A stretch of DNA of 64,000 nt from Pseudomonadota bacterium (GTDB lineage Bacteria > Pseudomonadota > Gammaproteobacteria > Burkholderiales > Ferrovaceae): positions 1-64,000 of the forward strand of contig JAKBLB010000010.1 in the NCBI GenBank assembly GCA_021832305.1, in the 5' to 3' direction. How positions within the stretch are numbered: position 1 is the first letter of the stretch; the number at the start of each line of letters is the position of its first letter. The position numbers were made by a program, and so were the translations under genes. Below the pieces are notes generated by a model, which saw only the letters and a list, made by a program, of their open reading frames with translations, had not been told where the DNA came from and searched no databases. Shown here piece after piece: positions 30,199 to 54,052 of this stretch.

Positions 30199-31620
30199 AT
30201 GGCCGTTAAAAAATATGAGGCCGGTGTAAAGGAATATCGGCAGACCTATTGGGCGCCAGAATATGTGCCGCTAGACTCGGACATCCTGGCCTGTTTCAAG
30301 ATTATCCCACAACCGGGAGTGGATCGCGAGGAAGCTGCCGCCGCTGTGGCTGCCGAGTCTTCCACTGGCACCTGGACCACGGTGTGGACCGATCTCCTGA
30401 CCGATATGGATTATTACAAAGGCCGGGCTTACCGCATCGAGGACGTGCCCGGCGACGACACCTGTTTCTACGCCTTCGTGGCTTATCCGATCGATCTGTT
30501 CGAGGAGGGCTCGGTGGTCAATGTGTTCACCTCGCTGGTAGGTAACGTGTTCGGCTTCAAGGCCATCCGCGCCCTGCGTCTGGAGGATGTGCGCTTCCCC
30601 CTCGCCTACGTCAAGACCTGCAACGGACCACCGCATGGCATTCAGGTCGAGCGCGACAAGATGAACAAGTATGGCCGTCCGCTTTTGGGCTGTACCATCA
30701 AGCCCAAGTTGGGCCTGTCGGCCAAGAACTACGGGCGCGCCGTGTACGAATGCCTGCGTGGCGGCCTGGATTTCACGAAAGACGACGAGAACGTCAACTC
30801 GCAGCCCTTCATGCGCTGGCGCGATCGGTTCCTGTTCGTTCAGGATGCCATTGAAAACGCCCAAATTGAAACCGGCGAACGCAAGGGTCACTACCTGAAC
30901 GTGACTGCCCCGTCTCCCGAGGAAATGTACGAGCGTGCCGAGTTTGCCAAGGAGATTGGCTCGCCCATCATCATGCATGACTTTTTGACCGGCGGCTTTA
31001 CCGCCAATACCGGCCTGGCGCGCTGGTGCCGCAAGCACGGCATGCTGCTGCACATCCACCGTGCCATGCACGCCGTGCTCGACCGCAATCCGCACCATGG
31101 CATCCATTTTCGCGTGCTGGCCAAGGCACTGCGCCTGTCCGGCGGTGACCACCTGCACTCCGGCACCGTGGTGGGCAAGCTGGAAGGCGACCGCGGCGCA
31201 ACCCTGGGCTGGGTGGACTTGATGCGGGAATCCTTCATTCCCGAAGACCGCTCGCGCGGCATCATGTTCGACCAGGATTGGGGCTCCATGCCCGGTGTGA
31301 TGCCGGTCGCCTCGGGCGGTATTCATGTCTGGCATATGCCAGCACTGGTCAACATCTTTGGCGACGACTCAGTGTTGCAGTTCGGTGGCGGTACCCTGGG
31401 CCATCCTTGGGGCAATGCTGCGGGCGCCGCTGCCAACCGCGTCGCGCTGGAAGCCTGCGTCGAAGCGCGTAATGAAGGGCGCGAACTGGAGCGCGAAGGA
31501 AAGGAAATTCTGACCAACGCCGCCAAGGACAGCCCGGAACTCAAGATCGCCATGGAAACCTGGAAAGAGATCAAGTTCGAGTTCGATACGGTGGACAAAC
31601 TGGACGTGGTGAACCGCTGA
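30199..31620 (+). CDS. cbbL: ribulose-bisphosphate carboxylase large subunit, form IA (carboxysomal)
   Basis: Catalytic subunit of Rubisco, fixing CO2 onto ribulose 1,5-bisphosphate inside the alpha-carboxysome. The 473-residue protein is standard for form IA. Active-site motifs are intact: [10 protein letters not shown] (Lys168, Lys170), [10 protein letters not shown] with the carbamylated Lys194 and Mg ligands Asp196/Glu197, the HIHRAMHA histidine, and loop 6 [12 protein letters not shown]. First gene of the cso operon, preceded by GAGGAG. Its form IA character and the downstream csoS2 make the carboxysomal assignment firm. Confidence 0.99.
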
Positions 31621-35701: not shown

Positions 35702-35950
35702 ATGAAAATTTGTCAGGTGGAAAAGACGCTGGTTTCGACTAACCGGATCAAGGAGATGGGGCATCGCCCGCTGCTGGTCGTGAAAGAAAAAGGTGGTTCG
35801 CGCAGCATTGCGGTGGACGCGGTGGGCTGCATCCCAGGAGACTGGGTGATTTGCGTGGGTTCTTCCGCGGCGCGTGAAGCTGCTGGCGGCAAGGATTTTC
35901 CCAGCGATCTCACCATCGTCGGCATTATCGACCATTGGGCGGAAGATTGA
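35702..35950 (+). CDS. csoS4A: carboxysome shell vertex protein CsoS4A
   Basis: Bacterial microcompartment vertex (BMV, EutN/CcmL family) protein; pentamers cap the icosahedral corners of the shell. 82 residues with the family's MKICQVEKTLVST start, GHRPLLVV strand, AVGCIPGDWVI and the C-terminal DLTIVGIIDHW. Followed after one base by csoS4B, its paralogue. Both are minor shell components needed to seal the shell. Confidence 0.96.
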   Translation: MKICQVEKTLVSTNRIKEMGHRPLLVVKEKGGSRSIAVDAVGCIPGDWVICVGSSAAREAAGGKDFPSDLTIVGIIDHWAED

Positions 35951-35951
35951 A

Positions 35952-36218
35952 ATGGAGATCATGGAAGTGGTTTCCGACTTGGTATCCACACGCCGCATCC
36001 CTGGTTTGTACAGTGCTTCGCTCAGGGTGGTACGCGATGTCAAGGGCCGGCTCAATGTGGCGGCCGACCCGGTGGGCGTGCCGCCGGGCAAATGGGTGAT
36101 TACCGTGAGCGGGTCGGCTGCGCGCTACGCCATGGGCGATTACAGGATTCTTACCGATTTGACCATCGGCGGCATCATCGATGGTTGGGACCCCGGCGCT
36201 GGTCAAGCCGGTAAGTAA
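35952..36218 (+). CDS. csoS4B: carboxysome shell vertex protein CsoS4B
   Basis: Second pentameric vertex protein. 88 residues with the same layout as CsoS4A: EVVSDLVSTRRIPGL, VGVPPGKWVITVSGSAAR and LTIGGIIDGWD. The ATG at 35952 is used; an internal ATG three codons later gives MEVVSD and is possible. It lies between csoS4A and the csoS1 array, the normal order. Confidence 0.95.
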   Translation: MEIMEVVSDLVSTRRIPGLYSASLRVVRDVKGRLNVAADPVGVPPGKWVITVSGSAARYAMGDYRILTDLTIGGIIDGWDPGAGQAGK

Positions 36219-39045: not shown

Positions 39046-39849
39046 ATGAATGACGTGATCAACCAGTACCGCATCGAAAAAGAGCCCTACTACCATACCG
39101 TTGCCGACGAGGTCGATCTTTACGAGGCGGCCTACGGCGTGCGCATGCCGATGATGCTCAAAGGACCGACGGGATGCGGCAAGACTCGTTTTGTCGAATA
39201 CATGGCATGGAAGTTGGGCAAGCCCCTGATAACCGTGGCCTGCAACGAAGACATGACCGCCTCCGACCTGGTCGGACGCTTTCTGTTGGACGCCAACGGC
39301 ACCCGCTGGCAGGATGGGCCGCTCGCCATCGCCGCCCGGTTTGGGGCAATCTGTTACCTCGACGAGGTGGTGGAAGCCCGGCAGGATACCACCGTGGTGA
39401 TTCACCCCCTGACGGACAATCGCAGGGTGCTGCCCCTGGAAAAGAAAGGGGAGTTGGTGCACGCCCATCCAGATTTTCAGATCGTGATTTCCTACAATCC
39501 GGGCTATCAGAGTCTGATGAAGGATCTGAAACAGTCTACCAAGCAACGCTTCGGCGCACTCGACTTCAATTATCCCGAGCATGGGATCGAGGTGGAGATC
39601 GTTTCGCACGAGACAGGAGTGTCCGGCGAGATTTCCGACAAACTGATTTCGATTGCAGAGCGGGCGAGAAACCTCAAGGGGCACGGTCTGGACGAAGGCA
39701 TTTCCACCCGGATGCTGGTGTATGCGGGCAGTCTGATCGCCAAGGGGGTAGATCCCAGGAATGCTTGCCGCGTTGCGTTGATTCGTCCGATCACCGACGA
39801 CCCCGACATGCGCGATGCGCTTGATGCAGCAGTGACGACTTTCTTCTAG
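39046..39849 (+). CDS. cbbQ: Rubisco activase AAA+ subunit CbbQ
   Basis: MoxR-family AAA+ ATPase that with CbbO removes inhibitory sugar phosphates from Rubisco. 267 residues: Walker A GPTGCGKT at about 40-47, Walker B-type YLDEVVEA, a sensor in ISYNPGYQ, and the C-terminal CbbQ domain with [12 protein letters not shown]. The ATG at 39046 follows AAAAGGAG. cbbO follows 37 bases downstream. Confidence 0.97.
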
Positions 39850-39886
39850 ACACGGGTCATACAACGGAACTTGCCGGAGCAGAAAG

Positions 39887-42220
39887 ATGGCAATAGAACT
39901 CGAAAAGTACCAGGATATATTGGACGAACTCGGTGACCACGCCGGCGAAGTGCTGCGCGCCTCCTGGGGCGAGGCGGCGCGGGTGTTCGGCCCGCGTGGT
40001 CTGGAAGCCTATCTGCGTGGCGCAACCAGCCTGAAATCGTTGGGCCGTGGTACTGACCTGGTGGCATCCTTTATCCAGAGTGCACCGGCGGTGGCGCGCG
40101 AACTGGGCGAGGATGCGGTGAGCGATTTGATTGCCGCTGCCATCCGGATGTATTCCAAAACCAGCGCCACTGTGATCTCCCTGTTTTTTTCTTCCAGTCC
40201 GATCGCTGCTTCCCGGTTGGGCGACCCGGAACTGTTCCGGAGTTATCTACACCTGATCGATACCCTGCTCGCCCAGGCACCGCGTGGTGTACGCCCGATG
40301 CTGGATCACCTCGGCACCCTGCTCGGGCAACTGACTCTCGGCGGTCTGCGCCGTTGGGCGCTGTGGGGCGCCCAGGCGCACAAGGCGGATTTTGATGCCC
40401 AAGTCAGATATTTCGGCCTGGAGAGCCCGGAATCCTTGGGCGTTCTGCAAAAGGAACGCAAGGGCACCTTGTTTGTCGATGTACAGCGACGCATCGGCAT
40501 GTACCTGCGCGCCTTGTGGGGGCGAGATTTCTTCATGCGTCCCACCAGCGGCGACTTTGAACAGCGCGAAGGCTACCGGCCCTATATCGAGGGCTACATC
40601 ATTCACTTGCCCGACGCCTATGACGACCTCGAGACTCCTTCCGGCAAGACCGATGGTGTGGATCTTTATCGGGCAGCCTGTGCCCATGCTGCTGCCCATC
40701 AAATGTACACAAAAGACCCTCTTTCCGCCGAAGCGCTCACACCCCTGCAAATGGCGGTTATCGGCATCATTGAAGACGCACGCGTGGAGCAACTGGCGAT
40801 CAACAGTTTCCCAGGCCTTGCGCCTTTGTGGCAAAAACTTCACCACGCCACGCCCGACCGGAATGCGAGCATTGGCGATTATCTCGACCGTATTGCACAT
40901 GCCTTGCTGGACCCGGACTACGCAGACCCCGATCCGCTGATTGTCAAGGCGAGACTGCTGTTTGCCGGACAGGCGCATCTGCTTGCGAGCAATCAACTCG
41001 CGTGGGACCTGGGTGTGACGCTTGCCCACGACCTGATGCAGATGCAGTTGCCCTATAGCCCACATACCGATGTGCTCAACGCGCCCTATCGCGATGACAA
41101 TCGGTATCTGTGGGATTTTGACGAGGTCTCGGATTTCGCGCATGCGGAACCATGGAAGGAAAAGCAGGTACGCAAGCATGTCAGCCTCATGGAGTTTGCC
41201 AACGAGGTCGAGGTCGAGAACGCAGGTGACGATGCACAGGAAATCTGGGTGTTGTCCAGTGAGCTTTTTCCCTACGAAGATCTTGGAAAGAGTTACAACG
41301 AACTGGAAGGCAAGGAACCTCCTCCCCAGCCTTACCACTACGCAGAATGGGACTACCAGATGCAACTGGAGCGCCCGGATTGGTGTACCGTGCTGGAAAA
41401 GCACCCGAAACCGGGCGAAGTGGAGGTCATTGACGACATCGTAGTCAAGTACAAACCCATCATCGGCAGGCTCAAGTATCTGATCGAAGCCATGCAGCCG
41501 CAGGGGGTGCAGCGCCTGCGCAAGCAGGAGGACGGCGATGAGATCGATCTGAACGCCGCAGTGCGCGCCATGATCGAGATGCGCATGGGTGAGCAGCCCG
41601 ACCCGCGCGTCATGATGCGCAATGTGCGTAAAGTGCGCGATCTTTCGGTACTGCTGCTGATCGACCTGTCCGAATCCACCAATGATCCCGTGCTGGGTTC
41701 GGACAACACGGTGCTGCAGTTGGCGCGCGAAGCCACGGTACTGCTGGCCGATGCACTCGACAAGATCGGTGATCCCTTCGCCATTCACGGCTTCGATTCC
41801 AATGGACGCCACGACGTGGAGTACTTTCGCTTCAAGGATTTCGATGCGCCTTACAACGACCTGCCCAAGTCACGTCTGGCGGGCATGAGCGGTCAGTTGT
41901 CCACACGCATGGGTGCGGCGATGCGTCATGCCGGCTCGATTCTGAAGCGTCGGCCCAGCAACAAGAAGTTGCTGCTGGTGGTCACTGATGGCGAACCCGC
42001 CGACAACGATGTGCGCGACCCGCAATACCTGCGCTTTGACGCCAAGAAAGCGGTGGAAGAGTTGACCCGGGTCGGCATCACCACCTATTGTCTGAGCCTG
42101 GACCCCAGGGCTGACCAGTACGTGTCGCGCATTTTCGGCGCCAGGAACTACATGGTGGTGGACCACGTGCAAAGGCTGCCAGAAAAGTTGCCGCTCCTGT
42201 ACATGGGGCTCACGCGATGA
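39887..42220 (+). CDS. cbbO: Rubisco activase adaptor CbbO (VWA domain)
   Basis: Partner of CbbQ that docks the AAA+ ring on Rubisco. 777 residues: a long helical N-terminal half and a C-terminal von Willebrand factor A domain whose MIDAS motif reads D593-L-S595-E-S597, followed by the domain's VVTDGEPAD. The C-terminal VWA is required for Rubisco binding in the studied homologue. Stop overlaps by ATGA the start of a 58-codon ORF. Confidence 0.96.
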   Translation: MAIELEKYQDILDELGDHAGEVLRASWGEAARVFGPRGLEAYLRGATSLKSLGRGTDLVASFIQSAPAVARELGEDAVSDLIAAAIRMYSKTSATVISLFFSSSPIAASRLGDPELFRSYLHLIDTLLAQAPRGVRPMLDHLGTLLGQLTLGGLRRWALWGAQAHKADFDAQVRYFGLESPESLGVLQKERKGTLFVDVQRRIGMYLRALWGRDFFMRPTSGDFEQREGYRPYIEGYIIHLPDAYDDLETPSGKTDGVDLYRAACAHAAAHQMYTKDPLSAEALTPLQMAVIGIIEDARVEQLAINSFPGLAPLWQKLHHATPDRNASIGDYLDRIAHALLDPDYADPDPLIVKARLLFAGQAHLLASNQLAWDLGVTLAHDLMQMQLPYSPHTDVLNAPYRDDNRYLWDFDEVSDFAHAEPWKEKQVRKHVSLMEFANEVEVENAGDDAQEIWVLSSELFPYEDLGKSYNELEGKEPPPQPYHYAEWDYQMQLERPDWCTVLEKHPKPGEVEVIDDIVVKYKPIIGRLKYLIEAMQPQGVQRLRKQEDGDEIDLNAAVRAMIEMRMGEQPDPRVMMRNVRKVRDLSVLLLIDLSESTNDPVLGSDNTVLQLAREATVLLADALDKIGDPFAIHGFDSNGRHDVEYFRFKDFDAPYNDLPKSRLAGMSGQLSTRMGAAMRHAGSILKRRPSNKKLLLVVTDGEPADNDVRDPQYLRFDAKKAVEELTRVGITTYCLSLDPRADQYVSRIFGARNYMVVDHVQRLPEKLPLLYMGLTR

Positions 42221-42399: not shown

Positions 42400-43413
42400 A
42401 TGCTTTCGACCGAGAAATTGCTTGCCGCCGTGCAGTGGGCTGTGAAGGCACTGCGCGACGGTGGGCTCGTCGCCTTTCCCACCGAGACCGTCTACGGTCT
42501 TGGGGCGGATGCTGAAAATCCCTCGGCTGTAACTCGCATCTTTGCGGCAAAGGGCCGACCAGCCGACCATCCGCTGATCGTCCATATCGCGAGTCCCGAA
42601 CAAATCACCCACTGGGCCAAGGATGTTCCGCCTGCGGCTTGGCGCCTCGCGGGGCGCTACTGGCCGGGGCCGCTCACGCTGATTCTGCGTCGCGCCTGCC
42701 GCGTGCCCGATATTGTCACTGGTGGTCAGGACACGGTGGGGCTGCGCGTTCCCGATCATCCACTTGCATTGGCGCTGCTCGAGGCCTTCGGCGGCGGAAT
42801 TGCCGCTCCTTCCGCCAATCGCTTTGGCCGGGTGAGTCCCACCACCGCAGCGCATGTGCGCGAAGAACTGGGCGATGCCATGGACTTGATCCTGGACGGG
42901 GGGCCCTGCCGCGTGGGCATCGAGTCCACCATTCTCGATTTGAGTGGACATCAGCCCCGGCTATTGCGTCCCGGCGCGATCACTCCTGCCGAGATCGAAG
43001 CCGTTCTCGAGCAGCCAATTGCCCGGCCGGATAACGATGCGCCGCGGGCACCTGGCATGCTGCGCTCCCATTATGCTCCGCAAACCCCGGTCTACCTGGT
43101 TTCAACTGCGAATCTGGAAGCCGAAGCGCACCGGCATCTCGCACAAGGGCGGCGCGTTGCAGTGCTGTCCAGAGCCGCTCCTATTCTACCCGAGGCTCGT
43201 CTCTGGCAGGGTATGCCAACTCACCCGGCGGGATGGGCCCACGAACTGTACGCGCGGCTGCGCGACCTGGATGTGCAATGTTTCGATTGCATTCTGGTCG
43301 AGGCGCCACCCGCCGGTGTGGACTGGCAGGCGGTGGGCGACCGGCTGGAGCGCGCTGCTTCGGCGCAAGGTACGGTGCTCCCCAACAACCGGCTCATGAA
43401 AAATGCTTACTGA
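42400..43413 (+). CDS. sua5: L-threonylcarbamoyladenylate synthase, Sua5 type
   Basis: Makes threonylcarbamoyl-AMP from threonine, bicarbonate and ATP for the t6A37 tRNA modification. 337 residues: a YrdC/TsaC domain (about 1-200) with FPTETVYGLG, KGRPADHPL, and SANRFGRVSPT, joined to a C-terminal Sua5 domain with APGMLRSHYAP. It is the last gene of the cso run, six bases after the small ORF; its 3' end overlaps the convergent PDC-sensor gene by 20 bases. Its presence in a bicarbonate-handling locus is unusual, since the enzyme consumes bicarbonate. Confidence 0.94.
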   Translation: MLSTEKLLAAVQWAVKALRDGGLVAFPTETVYGLGADAENPSAVTRIFAAKGRPADHPLIVHIASPEQITHWAKDVPPAAWRLAGRYWPGPLTLILRRACRVPDIVTGGQDTVGLRVPDHPLALALLEAFGGGIAAPSANRFGRVSPTTAAHVREELGDAMDLILDGGPCRVGIESTILDLSGHQPRLLRPGAITPAEIEAVLEQPIARPDNDAPRAPGMLRSHYAPQTPVYLVSTANLEAEAHRHLAQGRRVAVLSRAAPILPEARLWQGMPTHPAGWAHELYARLRDLDVQCFDCILVEAPPAGVDWQAVGDRLERAASAQGTVLPNNRLMKNAY

Positions 43414-44449: not shown

Positions 44450-44648
44450 ACCGGGACTCCTTGATAAATTACTACGGAACGGTCATGGATGAGGCCGAGT
44501 TTGTCTTTGGCTGAACAAACTATTCCTTCTCCTTGCGATGGCGTCTTTGGAGAAATTTTGGGGTACTGTGGAAATTATGATGAATTTGCAGATTTAATAA
44601 AAGTTAATTATATTTACAGTTGTGTTTTACTATGGTTTAATATCAATC
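44450..44648. promoter_or_regulatory. divergent control region of the PDC-sensor gene and cbbR
   Basis: A 199-base AT-rich gap with the palindrome TTAAT-AAAA-GTTAA (44594-44607) and a good cbbR promoter: -35 TTTACA (44613-44618), 17 bases, -10 TTTAAT (44636-44641). The expected start falls at or next to the cbbR ATG (44649). From 44594 to 44643 it matches 51465-51514 upstream of dabB at 37 of 50 ungapped positions. Confidence 0.75.
44594..44607. promoter_or_regulatory. putative CbbR operator between PDC-sensor gene and cbbR
   Basis: TTAAT-AAAA-GTTAA, same 5-4-5 palindrome as at 30089 and 51465, five bases upstream of the cbbR -35. The position fits autoregulation by a LysR-type protein and divergent control of the sensor gene. 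Confidence 0.6.
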
Positions 44649-45635
44649 ATGCCCATTCGTCACGCTACCCTGCACCAGTTCAAGATTTTCAACGCCGTGG
44701 CTCGACACATGAGTTTTGCCCGCGCTGCCGAGGAACTCCACCTGACGCCGCCAGCCCTGTCCATTCAGGTCAGGCAACTCGCTGAGGCCGTCGGTCAGCC
44801 CCTCTTCGATCAGATCGGCAAGAAGATTTATCTTACCCCGGCGGGGGCGGTTCTGACAGTGGCCAGTCAGGATATACTCGACAGGCTTGAACACGTCGCC
44901 CAGGAACTGGCGGCGCTCCAGGGAATAGAGAAGGGCAGTCTGAAACTCGCCACGCTTGCCACTGCCAAATACTTCATCCCCCGCTTGTTGGGCGACTTCT
45001 GTGCGAAACATCCCGGTATCGATGCTGCCCTGTTCGTCGGTAATCGGGAGGCCCTGCTGGAACGGCTCGCGCGCAACCAGGACGATCTCTACATCCTGGG
45101 CCAGCCGCCGGCACACATGAACGTCACCGCAGAGCCTTTTGCGGATAATCCCTTGGTGATAGTGGCCCGACCGGACCATCCTCTGATGTCGGAAGAGAAG
45201 ATCGATCCATCGCGCCTGCAGGATATTCCATTCATTCTGCGCGAGCCGGGTTCGGGAACGCGTCTGGCCACTGGGGAGTTTTTCGGCCGGCATGGGATCG
45301 CCCTCAAGGCGCGCATGGAGTTTGGGAGCAACGAGGCCATCAAGCAGGTTGTGGCCAGCGGTTTGGGCATGGCCGTGCTGTCTGCCAGCACGATCAGCGC
45401 GGAACTCGCCAGTGGGGAACTGGCAGTACTCGACGTGCGCGGCTTTCCTCTGGAGAGAAAATGGTACGCAGTCTATCCTGCGGGAAAGCAACTCACCCTG
45501 ACCACCAAGGCATTCATGGAATACTTGTTCGCTGCCGCGCACCAAATCGATAGGCTCCCGCATGCTATAGCGACCCCGGTCGGGCGCAAGGAGCGGAAAC
45601 CGGCGTCCGGCTCAGGGAGTTTCGGTATTCCATGA
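44649..45635 (+). CDS. cbbR: LysR-type transcriptional regulator CbbR
   Basis: Regulator of CO2-fixation genes. 328 residues: winged helix-turn-helix at the N-terminus (TLHQFKIFNAVARHMSFARAAEEL), then the two-lobed effector-binding domain. The N-terminal sequence is close to known CbbR proteins (VARHMSFARAAEELHLTPPALS). The ATG at 44649 gives the expected N-terminus, but no ribosome binding site precedes it and the promoter would start transcription there, so the mRNA may be leaderless. Convergent with the DAB operon; 21 bases separate them. Confidence 0.9.
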   Translation: MPIRHATLHQFKIFNAVARHMSFARAAEELHLTPPALSIQVRQLAEAVGQPLFDQIGKKIYLTPAGAVLTVASQDILDRLEHVAQELAALQGIEKGSLKLATLATAKYFIPRLLGDFCAKHPGIDAALFVGNREALLERLARNQDDLYILGQPPAHMNVTAEPFADNPLVIVARPDHPLMSEEKIDPSRLQDIPFILREPGSGTRLATGEFFGRHGIALKARMEFGSNEAIKQVVASGLGMAVLSASTISAELASGELAVLDVRGFPLERKWYAVYPAGKQLTLTTKAFMEYLFAAAHQIDRLPHAIATPVGRKERKPASGSGSFGIP

Positions 45636-45656: not shown

Positions 45657-46232
45657 TCATTCATTCGTCCTGCCTCCAGGCAATCGCTCTTCGTTCTGCA
45701 AGGACAATCTGCCCGTGACCGGGTCGTAATAGATCGGTTGCGTGATCCGGAGCGGGTGACGGGTATCGAGTCGTTCGATCTCGGCGCGAACCTGTTTCTC
45801 TGGCGTGTCGTGGGTAAAGGCCGGTGAATAGCGGCAGACTCTCCTGGCATCTCCCCGCGTGAGCGCGAATAGCGCATCAAATACCCTATCGTGGGACAAC
45901 CCCATGTCGGTGTTTTCCCATGGATGCACGTGCTCGATTGACGCAACTGCCCAGACCCCCCACAAGGAAAAACTTTCATGCACCGCCAGTACGATTGCCT
46001 CGTCAGTGGGTAACCGTAACGTCATCTCCCGGGGAAGTTCGGTGACGGCATGTTCATCGATCCAGGCCCCCAGCAACCGTCCATCGGCGAATGAGCCACT
46101 CTGGCGACTGCGGCAATACGTGAGAAATTCTCCTACCTGTTGGCAGGCGCAGGCAAGGTCATCCGTTGTGCGTACGAAAATAAGCAGGCTCGTTATTCGT
46201 CCATTCTGCGTTTCATTGGCATTCATTCTCAT
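45657..46232 (-). CDS. hypothetical protein at the end of the DAB operon
   Basis: A 191-residue soluble protein I do not recognise. It begins MRMNANETQNGRITSLLIFVRT, has four cysteines, including CACQQ and a CRSRQ segment, a central LAVHESFSLWGVWAV strand-like region, and an acidic, arginine-rich C-terminus ending GRTNE. No signal peptide. The start is uncertain: ATG 46232 (11 bases after the DUF6671-like gene) or 46226. Its position as last gene of the dabB-dabA operon suggests a role in inorganic carbon uptake, but nothing in the sequence shows what. Confidence 0.6.
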   Translation of the reverse strand: MRMNANETQNGRITSLLIFVRTTDDLACACQQVGEFLTYCRSRQSGSFADGRLLGAWIDEHAVTELPREMTLRLPTDEAIVLAVHESFSLWGVWAVASIEHVHPWENTDMGLSHDRVFDALFALTRGDARRVCRYSPAFTHDTPEKQVRAEIERLDTRHPLRITQPIYYDPVTGRLSLQNEERLPGGRTNE

Positions 46233-46243
46233 AGGCTTCAGCC

Positions 46244-47098
46244 TCACGGGTTGCAGAAGTCGCAGCGGCCCGCCTGAGCCACCTTCTCGGGGCGCTCCAC
46301 CCTCACCTGATGGCCGCATCTTACGCAACGGTGGATGTCTGTCCGGACTTCGCGGGTCGGCGCACCGCAATTCTCGCAGGGCAGCCCTGGGACGCACTCC
46401 ATGACCTGGAAGCCGGGCGCGTCACAGGCGGGGCAAAGGGTGCAGAGTTTACGTGCGAGATCTTGAGCAGCTTGGCCGATCCTTTCCATGCGTGTGGGAT
46501 TGGCATGGGCGCGCACGTCGGTTTCAATGAACACCCGTCCGTTGGTCGATTCTGCGAGCGCCCAGGTAAAGACGGCCTCGAGTTCCGCCCAAGTGGCGAT
46601 TTCCTTGCGGATGCGCGGGTCCTCCTCGTCTTGTGGACGTACCACCAGATGATGCTCGGGGAATCCGGTCCGGTGGCCGAATCGTTCGGCTTCCTCCCAT
46701 CTTGCGGTGAGCAGATGAGAAAAGCCGGTCGACCCCGAGGCCACACCAGTCACCTCGATGCCCAGTATGTCGTCGATCCAGACGATCATCTCCCTGTTCC
46801 AGGGGAGCATCCCGGCAAAGTGATCTGGCCCGAAACTGCCCTCGCTCGCCAGCCCCAGCGGCAGGCCGGACAGTTCCATGCCGATGCGTGCCTTTTTGCG
46901 TGCTGCTTCCAGTTGGGTGCCGGGGCGCGGGATATCGCGGGTGAAGGTGCCCAGGGTATCCGTATCGAAGCCGCTTACCCGCTCGATCCGGCAGCCCAGG
47001 GCGGCATCCAGCACCGGCAAGATCACCCGCTCCTTGCCATGCTGGGTGAGCAAGGCCGCAGTCGCACCGTTGTAGACGGATTTTTTTCCTGAATTCAT
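46244..47098 (-). CDS. DUF6671-like protein with C-terminal zinc-ribbon cysteines
   Basis: 284 residues. The first 230 contain LLTQHGKERVILPVLDAALG, FDTDTLGTFTRDIPRPGTQLEAARKKARIGM and GLASEGSFGPDHF, which I associate with family DUF6671; not verified by search. The last 60 hold four CxxC-type pairs (CTLCPAC, CENC, CVRC, CDFC), as in a double zinc ribbon. No signal or membrane segment. Starts 37 bases after dabA on the same strand; AAAGG precedes the ATG. Biochemical function is unknown; operon position suggests a link to the DAB transporter. Confidence 0.72.
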   Translation of the reverse strand: MNSGKKSVYNGATAALLTQHGKERVILPVLDAALGCRIERVSGFDTDTLGTFTRDIPRPGTQLEAARKKARIGMELSGLPLGLASEGSFGPDHFAGMLPWNREMIVWIDDILGIEVTGVASGSTGFSHLLTARWEEAERFGHRTGFPEHHLVVRPQDEEDPRIRKEIATWAELEAVFTWALAESTNGRVFIETDVRAHANPTRMERIGQAAQDLARKLCTLCPACDAPGFQVMECVPGLPCENCGAPTREVRTDIHRCVRCGHQVRVERPEKVAQAGRCDFCNP

Positions 47099-47135: not shown

Positions 47136-49727
47136 TCAGTGCTCGGACGACACTCGTTGCCATTTCCCGTCCGTATTGCGCTGGTGGATGCTTCCATGTT
47201 CGTCGTCGATGTGAAAAAGAAACAGCCATCGATTTTCGACGAGTTCGCGCACGAGTTCGTGTTTGGCGATGATTCGATCGATCTCCGCCTTTGGGGCTTC
47301 GAGAAATACGTTCAATCTCAAGGGTTCGTGTACCCACTGCTTGCCATCATGGAGCGACTGCAGGGGAAGGCCGACGCGCAGGTCGCCCCCATTGCCCTCG
47401 AATACACCGATGGACCCACCCACGACGTTATGCAGTACTTTATTGCCGCTGCCGAATCTCTGGTTGTCGACGACGGATCCGTAGTACTGCATGTTGATCC
47501 AGTTGGCAACCACCATCGGTGCGGTCATGATGAGTTCCAGAACACCGAAGCCTTCATCCTTGCGCCATTCGTAGTCATGCAAAAACGCCCTTCCGGAAAG
47601 GTCGATGCCTGTGGTTCTGGAACGGGGTGCGGCGATGAATGCGGCATTGCCGGCAAGACCCCATTCCGGAAAAACCTGCGACCAGTCCCGGCTGCGTTCC
47701 CGAATCAGGGCATCGACAACATCCGGAGCCAGATTCGAGATGCCAAGCAAGTTGGACCGTTCCATGCGTGCCAGTTGTCCGGCCTGGGCGAGCCACTTGC
47801 GCAGTCGTTCCAGATCCGGTGCGTGAGTCGCCTCCAATCCCTCGATATCAAACAAGGTGATCGCATCGAGTGTCGTGTCATGCAAGGCTGGCACAAACCG
47901 GGTGTCCGCCGGAATATGAATGCCCTTTTGTGCAAGCTCCGCACGCACTTTTGGATCATTCAGCAACGTGGCGATGACCCGGGCACTGACTTCACCGGTC
48001 TGGCCTGCACAGGCCCCACAATCGAGTCCTGTGGCATGAGGATTGTTGACCGTGCTGCTTCCATGCCCAATCAGCAAAATCAACCGTGCAAAATTGCTGG
48101 TCATCGACATGGCCTTCAAAATCATTTCTGCCGAGGCGCTGCGGTTTTCTATGGGAATGCCGACTGTCGGGTTCTGGGTTGTTTTCTGTCGGGTTTGGGT
48201 GATTTCATATCCATGAGACACCTCTGCCAACGTCGGCGCAAGACGGTCGCGTAATTCGGTGGGAATTCCCTTGGTTTCCGGATGGGGTACGGTACGGCTC
48301 CATCCGAAACTGTCGCCAAGCAATTTTGGACCATACAGCAGGCCGGCCGACTCCACGAATGAAAAACAGGAGGAAGGTGAACTTCTGAAGGCTTTCCAGG
48401 CATTGGCGCCGTGCAGACGTCGATGGCGGCGGTTGATGGCCTTTTCCACTTCCTGGGCGCTGGCGCCGCGAACATGTTCGTGGACCCGGTAGCCGGGCGT
48501 CAGCAGCACAGGCATGTGCGTCCGCGCATCAGATGCTCCCAAAGGAACATATTCCATGAAAGCGCCGAAAAACCCGGCAAAGCCCACGGTTTGCACGGTG
48601 GGTGCAACGGTTTCCAACGCCCTACGAAACACTTCCGACCGCACATCGATGCAGAACGCGGCCTGTACGGAGGGGCGGACTGGATTGGGCTTCGTTGCTG
48701 ACTGCTGGGCAGGACTGGACAGTTTCGCAATGATTTTCTTCTGGTAACCCAGTTCAAAGGCCGATTGCAGTACAAAGTCTATTTGTGTCTGTGCTTGCGT
48801 GCTGCGTGCCGGAGTTCGCACCGCATGCCGCCAGGCATCTCCCAGTTTCGGGGCCTGTCGCGCATCGAACAGGATCAGTTCCCAGGCAAGGCGGATGGCC
48901 AGCAGATCGACGATGGAGTCCTCCTGCCCGCCCACCAACTCCTGTTCCCAGCGGAGGTAACGTGTCCAGGATGCCCAGCCGCCGATATTCAGCAAGGCGG
49001 CATGGAGATAATCATCGACCCGATCGGCTGGGATGGAAAGTTTCTGCAGGGCCAGAGCAATCGTGTCCATCGGCAGATTGGGCAACGTGGCGACTGCGCT
49101 CCTGATCCCACGCAGGCCCATCATCCCAGGGGCCAGATCGATTTCCGCAAATTGGCGCCAGGCTTCGTAGAGGGATTCCTTCCGCCAGGGCATCGGCCAG
49201 ATGGCCTGGCCTCGATCGAAATAAGCGGCAGCGAACTGGCTGATTCGTTCTATGACAAACCCGGTCCACTGAGTACCGTCCAGGTCTTCAAGGACATTCG
49301 AGACCAATGCGATTTGGCCTGTAGGGGGAGGGGAATCGTCGGCGATGGCTCTTTCCAATGCGGCGCCATCGAGCGCGAGGCCATGTTGCCGCAGCGACTG
49401 TTCCAGGTCGGCACGGGCAATGCGACCGGTCGAGATCTGCTCCCGATAATAGCGACGCGGCATGACCAGAGGAGAACCCGCCACTCTGGCAAGGGTTTCG
49501 CTGGCATGTTCGAAATCCTGATGACGCAGGCCAAAATAGGGGTTGACCGCCACGAAGGCATTGAGTGGCCAGAGCGGCACGATCCGCTGGCATGCCGATT
49601 CCACCAGGGCCTCAAGCGAAGCGGAATCATGAACGACGTCGGCCCTGCGGGTTGCATCGATGTCATTCGCGTCAATATTCGTGGTTCTGACAAATGCTGT
49701 CGAAGGGTTGGTTGTCGTGCGGTCCAT
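47136..49727 (-). CDS. dabA: DAB inorganic carbon transporter, DabA subunit
   Basis: Large cytoplasmic, zinc-binding, carbonic anhydrase-like subunit of the DAB complex (DUF2309), proposed to convert CO2 to bicarbonate vectorially, driven by a cation gradient through DabB. 863 residues. The metal/active-site set reads Cys359 and Asp361 (FCIDVRSE), His554 (LIGHGSS) and Cys569 (GLDCGACAG), equivalent to Cys351/Asp353/His524/Cys539 of Halothiobacillus DabA. AAGGAG lies nine bases before the ATG. Begins three bases after dabB. Confidence 0.97.
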   Translation of the reverse strand: MDRTTTNPSTAFVRTTNIDANDIDATRRADVVHDSASLEALVESACQRIVPLWPLNAFVAVNPYFGLRHQDFEHASETLARVAGSPLVMPRRYYREQISTGRIARADLEQSLRQHGLALDGAALERAIADDSPPPTGQIALVSNVLEDLDGTQWTGFVIERISQFAAAYFDRGQAIWPMPWRKESLYEAWRQFAEIDLAPGMMGLRGIRSAVATLPNLPMDTIALALQKLSIPADRVDDYLHAALLNIGGWASWTRYLRWEQELVGGQEDSIVDLLAIRLAWELILFDARQAPKLGDAWRHAVRTPARSTQAQTQIDFVLQSAFELGYQKKIIAKLSSPAQQSATKPNPVRPSVQAAFCIDVRSEVFRRALETVAPTVQTVGFAGFFGAFMEYVPLGASDARTHMPVLLTPGYRVHEHVRGASAQEVEKAINRRHRRLHGANAWKAFRSSPSSCFSFVESAGLLYGPKLLGDSFGWSRTVPHPETKGIPTELRDRLAPTLAEVSHGYEITQTRQKTTQNPTVGIPIENRSASAEMILKAMSMTSNFARLILLIGHGSSTVNNPHATGLDCGACAGQTGEVSARVIATLLNDPKVRAELAQKGIHIPADTRFVPALHDTTLDAITLFDIEGLEATHAPDLERLRKWLAQAGQLARMERSNLLGISNLAPDVVDALIRERSRDWSQVFPEWGLAGNAAFIAAPRSRTTGIDLSGRAFLHDYEWRKDEGFGVLELIMTAPMVVANWINMQYYGSVVDNQRFGSGNKVLHNVVGGSIGVFEGNGGDLRVGLPLQSLHDGKQWVHEPLRLNVFLEAPKAEIDRIIAKHELVRELVENRWLFLFHIDDEHGSIHQRNTDGKWQRVSSEH

Positions 49728-49730
49728 GAT

Positions 49731-51386
49731 TCAGACTCCTTTTGGTTGGTTACATGGAGCGGCTTGCATTGGCCAGAATCGTTGCAACAGCCGCGAGAAC
49801 GGGATGTCGACATACAACCCGTTATAAAGATGCACGTAGGCCCTGCGTGCGATCGGGTATTGGACCAGGTTGGGCAGGTTCTGCTGAATCAGGAGGATGG
49901 CAAAAAAAGTCAGCATCACCAGTCCGATGAGGGTGAATTGAGCGGGACCATCGACCATCCGTTCTGCCGGGAGGCTCGTCGTCAGCATGAAATGAAACAC
50001 GGCATGCAGGCTGAAATAAGCAGTACAGACCAGAGCGCTGAGGCCGACTGCACGTACGATGAACGCGGCCCCCATGCCTGCCTTGAAAGACTGGAGCAAG
50101 AGTTGGGTCATTGCCACGGCAACGATGGTGCCCAAGGCCAGGAGTGCGGGCTGACTTTCCAGAGTGACGCCAAAGGCCGCACCGATACCGACCGTCATCA
50201 GGCCTGCGAAGGCGAGTACGATGAGCCACTGCCAGAATGTGGGGGTGGATTGGGCGGGGCGCACGGCTGGCGTGCGGAAGATATCCACGACGCTACCCGA
50301 GGATAAAAAGGCATGAGCCTTGTACAAGGAGTGCGTCACCAGATGCAGCATTGCCAAGCTGTACAACCCAAAGCCGCATTCCAGCAGCATGAAGCCCATC
50401 TGGGCAGTGGTCGTCCAGGCCAGGAACACCTTGATGCTGGTTTGGGTCAGCATGATCAACCCGGCGGCAGCGATCGTGATGATTCCGATGATGGTCAGGG
50501 CGTTGGAGGCCGTGATGGACTGGGACATGATCGGGCTCATGCGAATGATCAGGAAAGCGCCTCCATTGACAATGCCCGCATGCAACAGGGCCGACACCGG
50601 GGTAGGGGCTTCCATTACCTGAATCAACCAGCCTTGCAGGGGAAATTGGGCCGTTTTGAGGGCTGCGGCCAGTACGATGAGCCAACTGGCCCATTGGAGT
50701 TTGACCGGAAGCGGACCAGCCATTGCCGCCATGGTATGAAAAACCGTCTCAAATTCCATGGTGTGCAGGGTGGAACCGATGAGCAATACGGCGATCAACA
50801 GGCTGATCTCGCCAACCCGGCTGACAATGATCTTTTTGCGCGCCGCGAGTACAGCGCCCACCCGCTCCGGGTAGAACATCAGGAGGTGATGCAAGCAAAG
50901 GCTGGTGGTCATCCACACCAGCACGAACATCAGCATGTTGCCGGAAACGATCAACGTCAGGATGGAGGCGAGCGTGAGATTGAGCCAGGTATAAAACCGT
51001 CCCTGACGTTTTTCTCCCTGGAGATAATTGCGCGCATAGCGGGAGACCACGAATCCGACGAAAGAAACCAGGGAGAGCATCACCACCGTGACTGGGTTGA
51101 TATAGAGGCTCAAAGCCAACGCACCCATGTCTCCGGGCAATGCAACGGAGAACGGAGTTACCGTCAGGGATTTTCCGCCGAGCGCATACAGCAGGGCGGC
51201 AATGGCTGCGCAGACAAAGGACAATGCGGCGGCGCCATTACTCAGACGTGCCATCGGCTGGGCATGTTCGTCGGACAGAACACTCCCGAAAATCCCCGTC
51301 ATCCACAGTAGCAACGGTACCGCAGAGATGAGCGCAAGGATGATGAAATTCAGGTCTGACAGCATGACAATCTCCGTAGATAACAT
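49731..51386 (-). CDS. dabB: DAB inorganic carbon transporter, DabB membrane subunit
   Basis: Proton_antipo_M family membrane protein (NuoL/MrpA-like) that supplies the ion-coupling part of DAB. About 551 residues with some 13-14 hydrophobic segments and the antiporter-core motifs HLLMFYPERVGAVLAARKK and PLQGWLIQVMEAPTPVSALLHAGIVNGGAFLI, which include conserved lysine, histidine and glutamate residues. Two starts have ribosome binding sites: ATG 51386 (AGGA) and ATG 51365 (GGAG); the longer is listed. First gene of the dabB-dabA-DUF6671-hypothetical operon. Confidence 0.95.
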   Translation of the reverse strand: MLSTEIVMLSDLNFIILALISAVPLLLWMTGIFGSVLSDEHAQPMARLSNGAAALSFVCAAIAALLYALGGKSLTVTPFSVALPGDMGALALSLYINPVTVVMLSLVSFVGFVVSRYARNYLQGEKRQGRFYTWLNLTLASILTLIVSGNMLMFVLVWMTTSLCLHHLLMFYPERVGAVLAARKKIIVSRVGEISLLIAVLLIGSTLHTMEFETVFHTMAAMAGPLPVKLQWASWLIVLAAALKTAQFPLQGWLIQVMEAPTPVSALLHAGIVNGGAFLIIRMSPIMSQSITASNALTIIGIITIAAAGLIMLTQTSIKVFLAWTTTAQMGFMLLECGFGLYSLAMLHLVTHSLYKAHAFLSSGSVVDIFRTPAVRPAQSTPTFWQWLIVLAFAGLMTVGIGAAFGVTLESQPALLALGTIVAVAMTQLLLQSFKAGMGAAFIVRAVGLSALVCTAYFSLHAVFHFMLTTSLPAERMVDGPAQFTLIGLVMLTFFAILLIQQNLPNLVQYPIARRAYVHLYNGLYVDIPFSRLLQRFWPMQAAPCNQPKGV

Positions 51387-51464
51387 GGTTGAGATCCTCT
51401 CAATTGGGTTCGTCGACGCGCACAAGGAGCGATGTCTGAATTGCATTATGGCGAAACCATACAA

Positions 51465-53462: not shown

Positions 53463-54052
53463 CAGGGGGACGAGAGGTCGTTCTGGCATCCTCCAATTCG
53501 GGCAAGATCCGTGAGTTTGATGCGCTTCTTTCACCCCTGGGGTGGAGGGTACTTGCCCAGAATGATCTGGGGATCGAAGGGGCCGATGAACCTCATCGGA
53601 CCTTCGTGGAAAATGCCCTGGCCAAGGCGCGGCATGTGGCCCAGTGGAGTGGGCGACCTGCCCTGGCGGATGATTCGGGACTCTGTGTGCCTTCGCTACA
53701 GGGTGCGCCGGGAGTGGATTCGGCCTACTACGCCGGTCCTCAACGACGGGATCAGGATAACAATCAGGCGCTTCTGCGTGCTCTTGCCGGAAGTGCCGAT
53801 CGCCGTGCATTCTACTACTGTGTCCTGGTCTGGGTGATGCATGCGGCGGATCCGACGCCGTGCATCGCCGAGGGACGCTGGTTTGGCGAAATTCTGGACG
53901 CGCCTCGGGGAACGGGTGGGTTTGGCTATGATCCCCTGTTTTGGGTTCCCGAAGGTGGGAAAACGGCGGCTCAAATGACGCTGACCGAAAAAAATACCCA
54001 AAGTCACCGTGCGCGCGCCTGGCAATCGCTGTTGCCCTTTCTGCAGACATGA
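53459..54052 (+). CDS. rdgB: dITP/XTP (non-canonical purine NTP) pyrophosphatase
   Basis: Hydrolyses inosine and xanthosine triphosphates to keep them out of DNA and RNA. 197 residues with [10 protein letters not shown] for nucleotide binding, ADDSGLCV, and [16 protein letters not shown] at 53459 overlaps the rph stop; the next gene, hemW, also overlaps by four bases. rph-rdgB-hemW is a conserved proteobacterial operon. Confidence 0.97.

Follow-up and report, generated by a model that had tools for sequence, protein, structure and literature searches.

The 64,000-nucleotide stretch of Ferrovaceae DNA analyzed here (positions 1 to 64,000 of contig JAKBLB010000010.1, assembly GCA_021832305.1; "the window") codes for a CO2-hydrating DAB pump for inorganic-carbon uptake (dabB-dabA), which is followed on the same strand by a member of the protein family DUF6671 and by a 191-residue protein (ORF191). 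DUF6671 is a common partner of both DAB and SbtA loci, and probably also of loci with SulP transporters or carbonic anhydrases. Our preferred reading, which is tentative and to which we give slightly less than an even chance, is that DUF6671 is a nucleotide-binding regulator of bicarbonate uptake, common to unrelated transport systems, rather than a DAB subunit. An initial annotation of the window had proposed the two proteins as an extension of DAB, with DUF6671 as a zinc-ribbon protein that might serve DabA in metal delivery, assembly or regulation. The target was well chosen, but it was framed too narrowly in terms of DAB and zinc. In the following, L with a number designates a collected DUF6671 locus or neighbourhood record and G with a number a sampled genome, G000 being that of the window.

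Transporter partners of DUF6671

A total of 90 loci (39 from named genomes, 11 from a class sample, 27 from an order sample, 12 plasmid records and the window) was merged at 90% DUF6671 identity into 80 groups, and neighbours were identified by searching representatives with Pfam or NCBIfam. At a distance of up to 6 kb from DUF6671, 33 groups contain DAB, 18 contain SbtA without dabA, five have only SulP or carbonic anhydrase, and 24 have none of these. Counted by gene, DabA is found in 33 groups, SbtA in 19, SulP in five, beta-carbonic anhydrase in two and a CbbR-like gene in 27. Any inorganic-carbon transporter or carbonic anhydrase is present in 56 of the 80 groups within 6 kb and in 51 within 1.5 kb (DAB or SbtA alone: 51 and 48). 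As controls, 40 same-size windows were taken at fixed positions from 14 class-sample genomes, including six that have DUF6671 themselves. DAB, SbtA, SulP or carbonic anhydrase occurred in none of the 40, and IlvD and BioA in one each; the neighbour seeds were drawn from DUF6671 loci, which favours finding those neighbours there.

The distribution of DUF6671 is patchy. It was detected in 12 of 274 genomes of the class sample (11 above the cut-off), in 29 of 250 of the order sample (28 above the cut-off) and in 6 of 299 of the phylum sample (five above the cut-off). In the class sample, where 68 genomes have DabA, DUF6671 is adjacent to dabA in 8 of the 12 genomes (G000, G041, G065, G105, G160, G207, G263 and, as a remnant, G172) and to SbtA in G169; it has neither as a neighbour in G119, G136 and G200, the last being a contig-end fragment. 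DabA or SbtA is encoded somewhere in each of the 12 genomes, compared to 102 of 274 overall (a probability of 5e-6 when drawn without replacement, with kinship ignored).

The family is spread over chromosomes and plasmids of Pseudomonadota, Actinomycetota and one metagenome-assembled genome (MAG) of Nitrospirota; no match was found in phage records. The 12 plasmid records (L233-L242, L245 and L246) are 24-709 kb long and come from nine genera, four being typed as conjugative. DAB is encoded within 6 kb of DUF6671 in seven of them and SbtA in three, while the Pseudomonas and Methylocystis plasmids have neither. From these plasmids, carbon-uptake modules appear to be mobile. DUF6671 might accordingly be a hitch-hiker of mobile CO2-concentrating islands that has no role in carbon uptake itself, as the plasmids and the patchy distribution (12 of 274 and 6 of 299 genomes) would allow. 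We regard this as the least probable explanation, considering the conservation at the protein level and the tight coupling with unrelated transporter types across three phyla, on chromosomes and plasmids and through changes of partner.

These changes were traced on a tree of the family, which was computed with a quick method from 79 of the 80 representatives (L114, a contig-end fragment, was omitted) and in which 24 of 76 inner branches have a support below 80; the branch leading to L122, a remnant, has a length of 10. The labels require 10 changes between DAB and SbtA. When only well-supported branches are considered, there are at least nine gains or losses of DAB and at least five of SbtA, each counted against all other representatives including those without a partner. 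The labels are nevertheless more clustered than in shuffles (18 changes for DAB, compared to a mean of 25.4). Thus, both inheritance and exchange account for the partners.

The switching of partners makes it unlikely that DUF6671 is a DAB subunit or a zinc chaperone of DabA and points to a role in a feature that these systems share, namely the bicarbonate of the cell. Neither companion corresponds to a described DAB subunit, as the initial annotation had stated: in the DAB structure report (PMC13144422), DAB2 is described with two subunits, and the third one of DAB1 is a small membrane protein. The DUF6671 model is devoid of long membrane helices, and in 47 of the 80 loci there is no dabA up to a distance of 6 kb. 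Nor is DUF6671 a constant partner of dabA, being close to it in 33 of 80 groups and adjacent to it in 8 of 68 dabA genomes. Conservation of both families in inorganic-carbon uptake loci was confirmed; specificity for DAB was not, since DUF6671 mostly occurs without dabA.

The proposed role as a chaperone that supplies DabA with zinc, or as a factor in its assembly, would fit the four conserved CxxC pairs, and dabA is the commonest single partner. SbtA and SulP, however, are not zinc enzymes, and in 18 groups DUF6671 is paired with SbtA instead of dabA, so that zinc delivery to DabA cannot be its common role. In addition, DUF6671 is not found beside dabA in 60 of the 68 dabA genomes, and DabA2 and DabB2 alone are reported to rescue carbonic-anhydrase-deficient Escherichia coli, the solved DAB2 structure being that of a DabB2-DabA2 fusion (PMC13144422). 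We consider the chaperone function highly improbable.

One DUF6671 copy behind dabA (L037:7619-8206) lacks residues ~160-241; the gene may be decaying, may encode a genuine short form or may result from an error of assembly.

Predicted fold and proposed function

The fold was predicted with AlphaFold2 from an alignment of 38 sequences, which comprises the window and 37 of the 39 named-genome loci (L013, a near-copy, and L037, with a broken or internally deleted gene, were left out); all 38 match the Pfam family DUF6671 (PF20376). The model has a predicted local distance difference test score (pLDDT) of 91.2 and a predicted template modelling (TM) score of 0.85. When compared to the PDB with Foldseek, YjjX is the best match (E 4.9e-4 for 1u5w, and 7.6e-4), followed by RdgB, human ITPase and archaeal NTPases, and then by Maf, KomB and CinA-type entries. 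VIA-align of model residues 11-228 resulted in a Z of 12.3 for RdgB (2q16; 134 residues at 3.0 A) and of 12.0 for YjjX, with 131-134 residues aligned. The overall fold is therefore predicted to be that of the ITPase-like superfamily (RdgB/HAM1, YjjX, Maf, KomB).

DUF6671 differs from the other members of this superfamily by an insert of ~70 residues, the lid, and by a tail that resembles zinc ribbons. The lid (residues 126-196) resembles that of ATP-grasp enzymes. The VIA-align matches are cyanophycin synthetase (Z 10.0), a phosphoribosylglycinamide synthetase entry (4dim; Z 9.7, 63 residues, 1.7 A), biotin carboxylase domains (Z 9.2 for 7kbl_B, with 67 residues at 2.0 A, and 8.9) and carbamoyl-phosphate synthetase (CPSase; Z 8.4). 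These superpose at 1.7-2.2 A over 61-70 residues. Biotin carboxylase, CPSase and PurK are enzymes that activate bicarbonate; PurK is not among the structures listed.

Profile comparisons with hhalign agree in register with the structural matches for the N-terminal part and for the lid. Residues 8-123 match the RdgB profile with P=4.4e-4 (biotin carboxylase: 0.0085; controls: at least 0.034), and residues 124-204 match CPSase with P=1.4e-4 and biotin carboxylase with 3.1e-4 (controls: at least 0.035). The controls were 22 profiles from 16 families, all of them neighbours of DUF6671. The regions were cut after the structural matches were seen, so that this similarity, weak in the case of the lid, is supportive but no independent proof. 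With the whole-length profile, RdgB is matched with P=0.0021 and an HH probability of 13.5%. For biotin carboxylase and CPSase, the top match then consists of residues 52-88 on the stretch that precedes the lid (P=4e-5, probability 70%), with the lid in second place (P=0.41). The two matches have the same order in both proteins and are possibly connected, unless the first arose by chance; the first also clashes with the assignment of that stretch to the ITPase-like part.

T18, H20 and K22 are conserved in at least 90% of the 38 sequences and E86 is invariant; from the motifs of ITPases and the alignment, we take these to be the signature positions. The N-terminal motif is in register with that of RdgB, while the ADDSG stretch of RdgB is ASEGS in DUF6671. 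No RdgB, YjjX or Maf family is among the listed Pfam matches of the window protein. The DUF6671 profile gave only weak matches to sequences of solved structures (best E 0.069; RNA polymerase and ribosomal chains). Searches by family name and DAB terms retrieved no description of DUF6671, or of an ITPase fold that has both zinc ribbons and an ATP-grasp lid.

The four CxxC pairs reported for the window protein are present (C222/C225, C241/C244, C258/C261 and C279/C282), and each of the eight cysteines is at least 90% conserved. On the basis of these pairs, the tail is probably zinc-ribbon-like. The description as a zinc-ribbon protein thus holds for the last ~65 residues but not for the remainder, with its ITPase-like fold and ATP-grasp-like lid. 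The Pfam matches of the tail are to a reverse-gyrase zinc finger (7 of 38 members, best E 5e-4), to the dksA/traR zinc finger (8) and to an RNA polymerase subunit ribbon (8). DUF6671 might thus be a nucleic-acid-binding regulator of low-CO2 genes, or might act on RNA together with Sua5, which is encoded in 13 of 80 loci. We consider this very unlikely, as none of these matches is strong, the families listed for the window protein at E up to 10 do not include a helix-turn-helix family, and 27 of 80 loci already have a CbbR-like gene within 6 kb.

We rather envisage a regulator that acts on uptake. DUF6671 would bind adenine or another nucleotide in the pocket of the ITPase-like domain and its lid, and its nucleotide state, perhaps together with bicarbonate, would turn inorganic-carbon uptake on or off; the tail may serve as a contact or stability element. 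In this scheme, we infer nucleotide binding, bicarbonate sensing, contact with the transporter and the direction of control. A precedent is SbtB, which in cyanobacteria is encoded with SbtA and serves as its PII-like regulator. SbtB is an adenyl-nucleotide-binding protein with ATPase/ADPase activity that regulates the CO2-concentrating mechanism (PMC10991534). DUF6671 may work alike via nucleotides and would do the job of SbtB with another fold: the window protein has no match to the P-II family at E up to 10, a lid insert and a zinc-ribbon-like tail are predicted, and the family also accompanies DAB. A separate controller is plausible for DAB, because purified DAB2 was reported to bind CO2 without hydrating it (PMC13144422).

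Several observations weigh against a general regulator of uptake. Of the 24 groups that lack DAB, SbtA, SulP and carbonic anhydrase within 6 kb, eight lie less than 1 kb from a contig end, while L006, L024, L033, L112, L159 and L172 have none of the searched partners although at least 2.9 kb is available on each side. Only 8 of the 68 dabA genomes of the class sample, one of them with a remnant, have DUF6671 beside dabA, so that DAB can do without it. The SulP neighbours (PF00916) could be sulphate transporters, and cysD adjoins in Methylobacter. Only two Foldseek matches have E<=0.001, both to YjjX and with TM-scores of 0.33 and 0.54, the low values being due to the lid insert. Similarity to ATP-grasp enzymes is restricted to the lid, the listed matches spanning only model residues ~99-197, and the HH probabilities of the cut profiles are modest (33-53%). 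Finally, ilvD (18 of 80), pyrC (10 of 80) and cysD (8 of 80) are frequent neighbours, which fits equally well with an enzyme.

The chief rival is indeed an enzyme that works in the chemistry of nucleotides or bicarbonate, within a low-bicarbonate gene module that also holds additional copies of bicarbonate users, such as an ATP pyrophosphatase or a ligase-like enzyme using ATP and bicarbonate, which acts on a metabolite and not on the transporter. The ITPase-like fold, the invariant E86 and a lid that resembles that of bicarbonate-activating enzymes would all fit. So would the users of bicarbonate found within 6 kb (Sua5 in 13 groups, PurK and PurE in five each, PEPC, biotin carboxylase and OadA in two each; none in the 40 controls). 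All seven genomes that were chosen for a Sua5 gene near DUF6671 carry one or more additional PF01300 genes of shorter length elsewhere, and six of them own a long one (more than 740 residues). However, the most frequent immediate partners are, by a wide margin, transporters of unrelated kinds (51 of the 80 groups within 1.5 kb), and the counts for PEPC and the carboxylases are too small on their own. We therefore judge a purely enzymatic function to be somewhat unlikely and retain the regulator of bicarbonate uptake as our preferred reading.

The carbon-uptake island of the window and ORF191

The features of the window are listed in Table 1. Adjacent dabA and dabB genes on the minus strand, with matches to PF10070 and of the PF00361 type, make up a DAB system, and the window resembles DAB2 and DAB1 of Halothiobacillus neapolitanus in having dabB-dabA. 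The gaps of 37 bases in front of the DUF6671 gene and of 11 bases in front of the ORF191 gene were found as initially annotated, and the series ends at a convergent CbbR-like LysR gene. For the latter, the best NCBIfam model is NF045990 (CbbR; 263 bits, under that model's cut-off of 450). Beyond the genes initially annotated, RuBisCO, a carboxysome vertex protein, CbbQ, a CbbO-like VWA protein (named from gene position and protein type), Sua5 and the CbbR-like regulator are encoded. Together with DAB, they form a CO2-concentrating island in this Ferrovum-like genome of an iron oxidiser. Among the 39 named-genome loci, the closest is from a Ferrovum sp. MAG (93% identity of the DUF6671 protein).

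Table 1. Coding regions and protein domains of the window that are discussed in the text.
Feature	Position	Strand	Basis or remark
RuBisCO large subunit	30199..31617	+	PF00016, PF02788
Carboxysome vertex protein, EutN/CcmL family	35874..36215	+	PF03319, E=2e-21
CbbQ and CbbO-like VWA protein	39046..42220	+	CbbQ_C, E=3.5e-34; VWA, E=6.1e-7
Sua5-type threonylcarbamoyl-AMP synthase	42400..43413	+	PF01300 and PF03481
Open reading frame, 351 aa	43394-44449	-	no Pfam match
CbbR-like LysR regulator	44622..45635	+	convergent to the operon; LysR_substrate and HTH_1 matches
ORF191, 191-aa protein	45657..46232	-	rare family, no Pfam match; relatives and third-position excess
DUF6671 protein, 284 aa	46244..47098	-	PF20376, E=1.8e-43, 149.3 bits (cut-off 23.8)
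DUF6671 residues 11-125, predicted ITPase-like (RdgB/YjjX) part	46724..47068	-	residues ~197-221 complete the fold
DUF6671 residues 126-196, predicted inserted ATP-grasp-lid-like subdomain	46511..46723	-	VIA-align, hhalign
DUF6671 residues 218-284, putative zinc-ribbon-like region	46247..46447	-	four CxxC pairs, terminal conserved CxxCNP
dabA	47136..49727	-	PF10070, E=1.3e-281
dabB	49731..51464	-	PF00361, E=9.4e-37; first listed start codon TTG, real start may lie further in
RdgB (Ham1) gene of the genome itself	53477-54037		~2 kb upstream of dabB

Both companions are real coding genes, as follows from the excess of third-position differences to their relatives. At the first, second and third codon position, ORF191 has 6, 6 and 19 differences to L002 and 69, 46 and 90 to L008, and DUF6671 has 30, 28 and 85 to L004. 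Sigma-70-like promoters were not more frequent than expected between 44300 and 51900 (4 seen, 3.6 expected). The RdgB gene near dabB is probably ordinary context, although DUF6671 has a related fold. The 351-residue open reading frame is conserved in other Ferrovum loci, where it has the same genes nearby, and in L122 it adjoins a DUF6671 remnant.

ORF191 has no Pfam or NCBIfam match at E up to 1. Relatives were found in L002, L003, L008, L034, L005 and L025, all adjoining DUF6671, in both relative orientations. These loci were fetched via DUF6671, so that the association is biased for seven of the nine known loci. An unbiased profile search of the 274 class genomes detected ORF191 in three: that of the window, G121 and G236. 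No DUF6671 was detected in either of the latter two. The gene order of G236 is CbbR-like, FBA-like, ORF191, dabB, a 256-residue protein without Pfam match, dabA, PII; in G121, it is CbbR-like, FBA-like, ORF191, and the DAB pair is 11 kb away. All nine loci thus have DUF6671 or else a CbbR-like gene accompanied by DAB in the vicinity. In L005 and L025, DAB is missing up to a distance of 6 kb; carboxysome genes are present in L025, and L034 begins at a contig end.

ORF191 is not a fixed part of the module, as no copy was detected in Ferrovum myxofaciens P3G (L004) and L007, where dabB-dabA-DUF6671 is present. The structure model, computed from seven sequences, is poor (mean pLDDT 52). With hhalign, no match was obtained among eight profiles (the C-terminal part of the FBA-like neighbour, RdgB, biotin carboxylase, DabA, CbbR, beta-carbonic anhydrase, DUF6671 and Sua5; best P 0.07). 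ORF191 is a real, rare family that belongs to carbon-uptake settings, being a second and rarer member of such loci.

Class II aldolase-like proteins with a C-terminal stress-responsive A/B barrel (Pfam Dabb) are encoded near CbbR-like genes in L018:4338-5567 and L121:11782-13005 (minus strand). In L243 and L244, similar aldolase-like genes directly precede ORF191, the C-terminus having been judged by eye.

Bicarbonate limitation and a possible wider module

A two-domain Sua5 at the carbon-uptake island, as in the window, is also found in L116, L118, L113, L010, L121 and L167. The gene of the window is one of three PF01300 genes in G000. Sua5 at such an island may be a low-bicarbonate back-up, by analogy with another system in which t6A synthesis is limited by bicarbonate (Km 31 mM for the human mitochondrial system; PMC5951830). 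The t6A modification of tRNA may then be a weak point that bacteria reinforce under carbon limitation.

We know of no direct link to bicarbonate for IlvD, PyrC, CysD and TerC, which are encoded within 6 kb of DUF6671 in 18, 10, 8 and 8 of the 80 groups, compared to 1, 0, 0 and 0 of the 40 controls. The groups with ilvD are L002, L011, L016, L019, L028, L034, L040, L121, L158, L161, L177-L179, L233, L234, L238, L241 and L245. Another PF00920 gene is present elsewhere in four of seven genomes; in the other three, all from one genus, the IlvD gene at the locus is the sole one. CbbO is found in eight groups, FBA-like proteins in seven and a Ca-ATPase in six. BioA is not enriched (4 of 80, compared to 1 of 40 controls).

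In two Mesorhizobium plasmids, cysD is located between dabA and the DUF6671 gene on the same strand (L240, 5078-5983; L246, 5054-5950), and cysN is not annotated next to it. The two latest genomes, which resulted from the phylum search, are outside the 80 groups. In one of them, G764, cysD follows the DUF6671 gene while dabA is on the opposite strand (L289, 7708-8613), and Sua5, a CbbR-like gene, DUF6671, CysD, DAB and TerC occur together. In the other (L290), none of the searched partners is near DUF6671.

It is tempting to go a step further and to consider DUF6671 as the first representative of a new class of bicarbonate or energy sensors, ITPase-like proteins with the ATP-grasp lid of enzymes that activate bicarbonate, which would read ATP and bicarbonate together, control the co-encoded pump and be the centre of a portable low-bicarbonate module. 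We rate this extended proposal as unlikely. If it were true, the pump and additional copies of bicarbonate-limited enzymes (Sua5, PurK/PurE, perhaps PEPC and pyruvate carboxylase) would form a portable module for survival at low bicarbonate, which, on bacterial chromosomes and plasmids, also takes in ilvD, pyrC, cysD and TerC.

To our knowledge, the control of CO2 and bicarbonate pumps outside cyanobacteria is little understood. A single soluble family that occurs with both DAB and SbtA, across phyla and on plasmids, provides a testable handle on the control of such pumps, and makes DUF6671 a candidate part for engineered CO2-concentrating mechanisms.

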